DNA of 64,000 bases from Acidobacteriota bacterium (GTDB taxonomy: Bacteria; Acidobacteriota; Thermoanaerobaculia; Thermoanaerobaculales; Thermoanaerobaculaceae). Both the position numbers and the translations under genes were made by a program. The stretch is from the NCBI GenBank assembly GCA_003133645.1, contig PKYI01000087.1:1-64000 (forward strand), given 5' to 3'. The notes under the pieces were generated by a model, which saw nothing but the letters and a program-made list of their open reading frames with translations, made no database searches and had not been told where the DNA came from. This document shows positions 3,110-58,918 of the stretch, one piece after another; the first letter of the stretch is position 1, and the number at the start of each line of letters is the position of its first letter.

Positions 3110-3208
3110 TGCGGGGGCTCGATCCTTGCCGTCGATGCCAGGAGGCCGGAGCGGCCCGCGGGCTAGCTTTTTGATTATGACCTGCCACCTCTCTGATTGG
3201 GTTTGTCG

Positions 3209-9256: not shown

Positions 9257-9260
9257 CTCC

Positions 9261-9295
9261 TGTGCCCTGTGCCCTGTGCTCTGTGTCCTGCCTTC
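9261..9295. repeat. Heptanucleotide-phased tandem repeat, locus A (TGTGCCC TGTGCCC TGTGCTC TGTGTCC ...)
   Basis: Four consecutive 7-mers 9261..9288 plus degenerate fifth, at a permease/permease gene junction. Confidence 0.8.
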
Positions 9296-48434: not shown

Positions 48435-48461
48435 AACGGGCGGCCTTCGCGGCCGCCCGTT
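48435..48461 (+). terminator. Hairpin terminator after the cytochrome operon
   Basis: AACGGGCGGCC-TTCGC-GGCCGCCCGTT, 11-bp perfect stem ending in TT(TC). Confidence 0.75.
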
Positions 48462-48473
48462 TCATATTCAAGG

Positions 48474-48604
48474 ACAGTGAACAGTGAAGAGGTGAAAGAC
48501 GGAAGACGGAAGAGGAGAGAAGGAAGGAAGACGAGCCTTGTCTTTCTTCCTTCTGCCCTTTCCCTTTCTTCAACTTTTCACTCTAAACTCTTCACTGTTC
48601 ACTT
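48474..48604. repeat. Heptad-phased polypurine/polypyrimidine inverted element, locus D
   Basis: ACAGTGA ACAGTGA AGAGGTG AAAGACG GAAGACG GAAGAGG...; 16-bp perfect terminal arms AGTGAACAGTGAAGAG 48476..48491 and its complement 48588..48603. Confidence 0.8.
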
Positions 48605-50197: not shown

Positions 50198-50267
50198 GGG
50201 CACGCAGGAACCGGGGACCGGGATCCGGGCACAACAAAGTCGTGGCCCGTGGTCCGTGGTCAGAGGA
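50198..50267. repeat. Heptad-phased repeat, locus C
   Basis: GGGCACG CAGGAAC CGGGGAC CGGGATC CGGGCAC AACAAAG TCGTGGC CCGTGGT CCGTGGT CAGAGGA in one 7-nt register between convergent stops. Confidence 0.75.
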
Positions 50268-58440: not shown

Positions 58441-58686
58441 ATGCCATCGCCCGATCCGGTCGGAGAGTTGGTATTGATCGCCCGCGCGGCTGCGGACGCC
58501 GGGCTCGACTGGCAGACGCGTCTGCGCCAGGAGTGGCTGCCGCGCGCCGTGGCCAGGACGCCGCGAGCCGTCCTCGAGGCGGCCGTCGCCGACTGGTCGG
58601 ATGAGGCGCCCGCTGCCGGCGCCGACCTCGGTGGCCGGCTCGAGACCGCCGTCGTCGCGGCAATGGCCGAGAAGGGGTACGACTAG
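58441..58686 (+). CDS. Hypothetical 81-aa protein
   Basis: ATG with GAGGAGGTGCGT SD; plausible codon usage. Confidence 0.5.
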   Translation: MPSPDPVGELVLIARAAADAGLDWQTRLRQEWLPRAVARTPRAVLEAAVADWSDEAPAAGADLGGRLETAVVAAMAEKGYD

Positions 58687-58691
58687 AACCA

Positions 58692-58803
58692 GGGCACCGG
58701 GCACAGGGCACCGGGCACGGAAGAAGCGTGGTCCGTGGTCCGTAGAGACATAGCGCCGGGGTCCGGGCACTGGACACCGGCGAGACGTGGCCGGTGGCCG
58801 GCA
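58692..58803. repeat. Heptad-phased repeat, locus B
   Basis: GGGCACC GGGCACA GGGCACC GGGCACG GAAGAAG CGTGGTC CGTGGTC CGTAGAG ... GCCGGTG GCCGGCA in one register. Confidence 0.8.
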
Positions 58804-58818: not shown

Positions 58819-58918
58819 CGTCATGCCCGCGGACACGGGCATCCAGCCACCGGCGAGGGCCACGATCTGGATCCCTGCCCCGGGTCAACGCCCGGGGCAG
58901 GTTTTCGCGGGGATGACG
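58819..58918. repeat. REP/MITE-like 100-bp element with GTCATSCCCGCG termini and internal hairpins
   Basis: CGTCATGCCCGCG...CGCGGGGATGACG ends; hairpin GCCCG/CGGGC; perfect CTGCCCCGGG-TCAACG-CCCGGGGCAG stem 58875..58900. Confidence 0.75.

Follow-up and report, generated by a model that had tools for sequence, protein, structure and literature searches.

Tandem repeats with a seven-nucleotide unit are a known bacterial class that has no accepted explanation. Heptamers were reported to be the commonest long simple-sequence repeat (SSR) in most bacterial genomes (Mrazek 2007, cited in PMC4679880); as that report is cited there, it comes with no tested explanation of why the unit should be seven or lie beside genes. 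The size of the polymerase contact has been proposed as the reason for seven (PMC4692102, PMC4679880). The G-rich heptamers described by Rehm et al. (2015) in Xanthomonas (GGGAATC, (GGGANTN)n) and Nostoc (GGGGAYT) are favoured within 50 bp of a stop codon on the sense strand, or antisense upstream of an ORF; they are rare between divergent genes, form convergent inverted pairs in Xanthomonas, and have no known function (PMC4692102). Cyanobacterial heptanucleotide repeats of the STRR type (Calothrix) are cited in the same paper. The marine Beggiatoaceae carry direct repeats of one heptamer only, TAACTGA, which immediately precede start codons; related heptamers are seldom repeated (PMC4679880). 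REP elements, a separate class, are 20-40 bp palindromes with GTAG or CGTC tags (PMC3733652).

The window analysed here, a stretch of 64,000 nucleotides with a GC content of 71%, belongs to the draft genome of an uncultured acidobacterium, of 3.69 Mb (216 contigs, 89% complete), of which about a fifth was read. Two samples of this source genome were used, a smaller one of 371 kb from long contigs (39 kb of it intergenic) and a larger one of 90.5 kb of intergenic and 661 kb of coding DNA. Genes were predicted using a simple codon-usage caller written for this analysis. Acidobacteria MAG contigs similar to stretches of the source genome were found in FW104_bin.1 (L034; 88.5% nucleotide identity) and clean3599 (L032; 86%).

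Five period-7 loci (A to E) had been named in an earlier note on this DNA. At locus B, the heptads written there from 58692 (GGGCACC GGGCACA GGGCACC GGGCACG GAAGAAG CGTGGTC CGTGGTC CGTAGAG) are present and constitute a period-7 composite, (GGGCACN)4 - GAAGAAG - (CGTGGTC)2 CGTAGAG (58692-58747, plus strand), which starts 5 nt past the stop of a small ORF (58474-58686). The single unbroken register claimed for about 110 bp was not upheld, as the second half is a second composite (GGGGTCC GGGCACT GGACACC - GGCGAGA - CGTGGCC GGTGGCC GG; 58758-58801, plus strand) offset by 3 nt from the first (58758-58692 = 66 = 9x7+3). Locus B is thus an ordered composite twice in tandem, (GGGNNCN)n, one A/G heptad and (CGTGGYC)n, each copy in register with itself, and this grammar of G-heptads, one A/G heptad and CGTGGYC heptads gave 0 matches in 20 shuffled windows. 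Copy 2 can base-pair, through its distal block, with the leading block of copy 1 (inverted matches of 58692-58704 to 58787-58799 and of 58706-58719 to 58786-58799; predicted RNA fold z -3.26), and no terminator-like site was found at the locus. Just 3' of it lies a CGTC-type palindromic element with 18-nt arms, CGTCATGCCCGCGG...TTCGCGGGGATGACG (58819-58918). At the corresponding site, the related genome G002 has a shorter CGTGGTC-type array without the CGTC palindrome.

Locus C (50207-50264, plus strand), an in-register composite between convergent genes, does have the block order of locus B, as had been stated: its heptads from 50213 are GGGGACC GGGATCC GGGCACA, then ACAAAGT, then CGTGGCC CGTGGTC CGTGGTC, and the predicted fold is a weak hairpin (z -0.93). 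Locus D (48474-48603, no strand assigned) lies between apparently convergent genes and lacks the composite of B and C. It is one long inverted repeat, a 130-nt hairpin with arms of the ACAGTGA/GGAAGAC type, predicted at -76.2 kcal/mol as RNA (z -8.74) and at z -7.24 as DNA. A GC-rich hairpin with a T-run (GGGCGGCCTTCGCGGCCGCCCGTTTC, 48437-48465) follows the cytochrome c-like gene upstream of this hairpin, and its form is kept in the congeners read. Because this conserved hairpin precedes the array, the array is not the sole terminator of the upstream gene. Locus A is a (GGGCACA)n array (9259-9290, minus strand) within the 41 nt that separate two genes of the minus strand, and lies 12 nt past the stop of the upstream gene. 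Period-7 was recovered at locus A and at locus D (48474-48513 and 48580-48603), and locus E (12680) had no period-7 segment at the threshold applied. The observation was partly confirmed: the heptads were as described, the unbroken register and locus E were not upheld, and locus D lacks the composite. The note had not included the doubled composite of locus B, the gene-end anchoring, the strand polarity, the inverted arms or the REP-like palindrome.

These islands belong to a genome-wide family of period-7 arrays, which number in the hundreds in the source genome. In the 39 kb of intergenic DNA from long contigs, 24 lag-7 arrays were detected against 0.45 in dinucleotide shuffles; across periods 2-28, the harmonic 14 gave 15 arrays and each other period at most 4. 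The excess over shuffled DNA on which the earlier observation depended was likewise found in the 90.5 kb sample, which includes contigs picked for having matches (67 arrays against 0.4 in dinucleotide shuffles, with a comparable excess only at the harmonics 14 and 21). Only 19 arrays occurred in 661 kb of coding DNA, a density of 0.29 per 10 kb compared to 7.4 in intergenic DNA. The pattern CGTGGTCCGTGGTCCGT had 102 matches in the source genome at up to 2 mismatches, versus 3 for the same pattern read backwards.

Six of the seven related genomes sampled also carried arrays (G001 9, G002 14, G006 6, G008 13, G041 42, G077 7), with shuffles near zero; the G040 sample had none. A scatter sample of 34 kb from the phylum held 15 period-7 arrays, with every other period at 4 or fewer. 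The units themselves vary widely. Those of the source genome include GGGCACC, GGGGTCC, CGTGGTC, ACAGTGA, GAGAGTT and others, and relatives and the wider phylum use AGTGCTG, AGCGGGT, AAATTGA, CAGTTGA, AGAGTTG and GGAAGAC. The exact CGTGGTC type is scarce (6 of 297 genomes of the phylum), and a scan of genome contigs for the full composite returned six loci only, all from Acidobacteria or Terriglobia, two of which align to source-genome stretches at 86-88% nucleotide identity. A universal heptad consensus drawn by eye, G-N-R-N-W-Y-N, was dropped, given that a random heptamer often fits it across 14 rotations and strands.

Since a tandem heptad fits any register through rotation, one locus proves little about register. 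Across the intergenic DNA of the genome, the spacing that separates the final GGGNNC from the GTGGYC after it was quantised modulo 7 (class counts 15, 24, 4, 5, 2, 5 and 4; p=2.7e-8), with 39 of 59 spacings in two adjacent classes and peaks at 14-15 and 21-22; the same spacing was flat in coding DNA. In-register block order is consequently a genome-wide property. The ordered composite with 15-nt spacing has 17 intergenic copies. Shared ancestry of the copies accounts for the mode at 15, and the additional 7-nt steps are the trace that slippage or unit insertion would leave. Stepwise growth by 7 nt, suggested earlier from locus B, gains support from this spacing and from arrays of higher order in a congener, of which (GTGGGTCGTGGATC)n is an example. 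That 14-mer array, of about a dozen heptads, follows prmC in G007 (L196); G000 lacks it at this site. A REP-like 31-bp palindrome, GCCGGCTGCGCCGGCCGCAGGCCGCGCAGCC, is present in 36 copies in the source genome (for example L013, 4252-4282), often directly 3' of a CGTGGTC block.

Placement relative to genes was determined with array strand assigned from sequence alone, the G/purine-rich strand being taken as sense. Of 64 source-genome arrays, 55 had the 5' end of that strand as the end closer to the ORF edge (p=3.5e-9), and 31 of the 64 lay within 30 nt of an ORF edge, versus 16.0 under random placement in the same gaps (maximum 27 in 2000). Stop-facing arrays numbered 35, of which 25 were within 30 nt of the stop and often within 10 nt; the remaining 29 of 64 had a start codon behind them, i.e., they are antisense upstream of a gene. 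Divergent gaps held only 4 of the 64 arrays, though they make up 78 of 404 gaps. The arrays are anchored at ORF edges with the G/purine-rich strand leading away, most tightly after stop codons, and this is the rule of placement and polarity reported for the Xanthomonas and Nostoc repeats (PMC4692102).

Some arrays reach coding sequence. One (L018, 7100-7131, with its orthologs L107-L109) apparently lies inside the C-terminal tail of an RpiB-like gene upstream of SHMT, where the congeners have differing heptads (GGGGTCC, GGGCGCA, GGGGCTC); because each carries its own heptad there, the sequence of the tail would differ from species to species. Protein tails can, it appears, arise by capture of such intergenic repeats. 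Past the stop of the methylmalonyl-CoA mutase gene, an array continues into the apparent signal-peptide start of the next gene (L081, L083, L084 and L085, about 3141-3185) and keeps about four units, of the CGTGGTC type in G000, G002, G007 and G008 and CGGGGTC in G001.

Fifteen array-adjacent genes were traced into up to eight congeners, and an array was counted if it lay within 90 nt of the orthologous stop. Several of these comparisons involve few loci, all picked because the source genome bears an array there. Arrays were retained at 11 of 13 orthologous stops in both G002 and G005, 8 of 13 in G008 and 7 of 12 in G001, against a base rate, among stops with a gap of at least 60 nt, of 9-14% in G001, G002 and G008 and 8-14% over the congeners measured; the orthologous stops in G006 and G004 were mostly without an array (2 of 11 and 1 of 11 with one). 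The unit is often swapped at a retained site. Downstream of glmS it is GGGGTCC, GGGCTCC or ACAGTTG depending on the species, and downstream of prmC it is GTGGTCC, (GTGGGTCGTGGATC)n, GGGGCTC or GAGAGTT. Likeness of arrays between species showed little or no excess at the same site in the distant congeners (G008: 6.0 vs 7.5 at different sites), and some memory of sequence in the closest congener, G007 (24.2 vs 11.5). Between G000 and G007, with coding DNA 88-95% identical, the unit was kept at the APC permease and mutase genes, the TnaA-like array was expanded, and the word was changed or the array lost at prmC, EamA, SHMT and GlgA. In the gap after an AAA-domain gene (L094, L097, L098), G000, G005 and G001 bear arrays; in G007, G006 and G004 a dispersed element of a different kind, CGTCATCCTGAG...GAAGGATC, is found there.

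The proposal that unit length is conserved while sequence drifts is thus borne out at orthologous sites, where array position is conserved and the heptad often differs. The comparison of islands between genomes yielded site retention, expansion, word change and loss, all read directly, as were array identity and placement; slippage and copying between islands are inferred. Overall, the earlier interpretation is partly supported.

One positional rule covers two architectures, arrays paired as hairpins and composites that stand alone; they are distinguished because the composite type common in the source genome, unlike the pairs of the locus D type, is not an arm-matched hairpin. The 30 inverted pairs in the genome samples had a median arm-partner score of 18.5 versus 4.0 for random partners, a difference that is partly by construction given that pairs were picked at a score of at least 10. 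The ranking of partners and the flank-complement test are free of this: the true partner outscored every other in 14 of the 30 pairs, and arrays with a top-10% complement in their own flank made up 79% in G041, 20% in the source genome and 7% in G002. A well complementary flank partner was found for 13 of 70 source-genome arrays and 0 of 14 in G002. Among the orthologs of loci C and D (two loci only), where different species use different heptads, arms matched better within species (13.5 and 13.0) than between species (6.2 and 9.2). A swap test gave no sign of hairpin coupling between the composite's two blocks (p=0.82), and the reading of the composite as a selected hairpin between its own blocks was rejected on that result.

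Flanks 3' of genes fold better with arrays than without them in three genomes. Few flanks with an array have a T-tract (15% in the source genome, 0% in G041). A G3 motif, scored with regard to possible G-quadruplex capacity (four G3 runs), occurred in 30% of array flanks in the source genome versus 2% of others, and in 9% and 6% of array-bearing flanks in G008 and G041. A search for known RNA families returned miRNA-model matches only, far below gathering scores; with a single exception they fell on the locus D hairpin, which is of low complexity.

The islands are very probably heptameric simple-sequence repeats at gene ends, as the over-represented 7-nt tandem unit and its location mostly outside coding regions are those of that class. 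Replication slippage in 7-nt steps would homogenise each array, and copying between dispersed islands would spread single units and whole composites (G-block, A/G heptad, GTGG-block and often the REP-like palindrome), so that position and unit length would outlast sequence. Judged from sequence patterns, these two processes together probably generate the arrays. On weaker grounds, the arrays may persist at gene ends because they supply a structured 3' flank, either a hairpin or a G-rich strand, which could pause transcript ends, stabilise them or keep adjacent transcripts apart. Such a role is tentative and has a minority share of our confidence, because T-tracts are atypical, a terminator-like hairpin sits beside locus D, and antisense arrays before starts are common; the 29 of 64 arrays of this last kind disfavour a purely sense 3'-UTR role. 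Enzymology and function are what we infer here, and we lean slightly towards the full account, in which gene-end heptad arrays arise by slippage and copying and serve as structured 3' flanks.

A neutral microsatellite life cycle, in which a 7-nt slip is the easiest replication step and arrays survive without function only where DNA is unconstrained, is possible at rather less than even weight. It fits the fast turnover of arrays, their entry into coding ends where tolerated (such as the RpiB-like tail and the region before the post-mutase gene) and the abundance of heptamers among long SSRs, which the accounts cited here put down to polymerase slippage (PMC4679880, PMC4692102). Constraint alone, however, yields neither strand polarity relative to the ORF edge nor reverse-complement matching of arms, and leaves unexplained why arrays at orthologous stops exceed the base rate several-fold. 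A version in which the arrays arise neutrally and hairpins drive the copying between arms competes seriously with the main account. The ordered composite with its 17 copies at 15-nt spacing, the 36 palindromes often abutting CGTGGTC blocks, the two composite copies at locus B and the Y1 transposase genes in the source genome would instead suit a short mobile or REP-like element that has the heptads as its variable part and reaches new gene ends by copying, for which RAYT/Y1 transposases might be responsible. This is somewhat unlikely, as relatives carry arrays that have other units and no palindrome, the orthologs read have no constant ends and no target duplication, and Y1 matches do not follow those to the CGTGGTC pattern (2 vs 485 in G002, 5 vs 4 in G004). 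RAYT/Y1 transposases were rejected as the driver, being nearly universal and unrelated to abundance of the CGTGGTC type.

Bidirectional intrinsic terminators made of heptads would account for the long hairpins between convergent genes (locus D), for arms that differ between species and match within each, and for the better folding of array flanks. They are an unlikely explanation: locus B has no terminator-like site, T-tracts are rare elsewhere, a canonical GC hairpin with a T-run stands beside or inside some array pairs, and most source-genome arrays are unpaired. The intrinsic (Rho-independent) class, defined by a GC hairpin and T-tract, was rejected for the arrays. Metagenome-bin misassembly, which the 216 contigs and 89% completeness of the source genome might suggest, is already refuted for the array family as a whole, since genomes assembled independently share array positions at orthologous sites and one array-bearing phylum sample comes from a single contig of 7.48 Mb (L265); this refutation does not extend to exact array lengths. 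The reverse transcriptase that had been suggested as a co-occurring gene was not borne out, with no RVT_1 match in the source genome (89% complete), G006 or G077, all array-bearing; it was rejected as the generator, and the arrays seem, from these gene contents, to have no need of one. It is very unlikely that a cellular machine with a 7-nt footprint (a polymerase, ligase or recombination factor) writes and rewrites arrays at ORF edges. If one did, it would swap the unit and keep site, polarity and arm complementarity, and gene-end structure would be inherited as form, not sequence.

With related species keeping an array at one site and often swapping its unit, the long-standing puzzle of why long bacterial repeats come so often in sevens becomes testable. 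Position, unit length and sequence are separable here, as the same gene end is readable in up to nine related genomes, and slippage, copying between islands and selection on structure can therefore be distinguished by experiment.

The analogy drawn earlier with cyanobacterial heptamers is fair, but these are not the closest relatives described: the G-rich heptamers of Xanthomonas and Nostoc are nearer, since they obey an identical polarity rule at ORF edges (PMC4692102). STRR sequences, compared by description, resemble the arrays as dispersed tandem heptanucleotides; they come from another phylum, and the literature compared, in so far as it describes them, gave no account of composite order, gene-end polarity or arm matching. 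The TAACTGA repeats share numerous short intergenic heptamer arrays and a patchy phylogeny (PMC4679880), and differ by their single unit and start-codon placement from the many units and gene-end arrays found here. REP elements are likewise dispersed, mostly downstream of coding regions and often in pairs of opposite orientation (PMC3733652), but are palindromes, not tandem heptads; REP-like and CGTC-type palindromes adjoin the arrays and are separate from them, and the array itself, a tandem heptad, falls outside the REP/RAYT class of 20-40 bp tagged palindromes. The Rehm repeats share the 7-nt unit, intergenic location, degenerate units, many copies and fast length change between species (PMC4692102). 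Source-genome units do not fit their unit definition (GGGAATC/(GGGANTN) or GGGGAYT), and, unlike them, a single genome here has numerous unrelated heptads, arranged in ordered composites that keep register. The unit is swapped at orthologous sites, and arm matching extends over numerous unit types, among them A/T-rich heptads unable to form G-quadruplexes. The heptameric repeat class itself is known; new here are heptad arrays that are site-conserved, unit-swapping and arm-matched.
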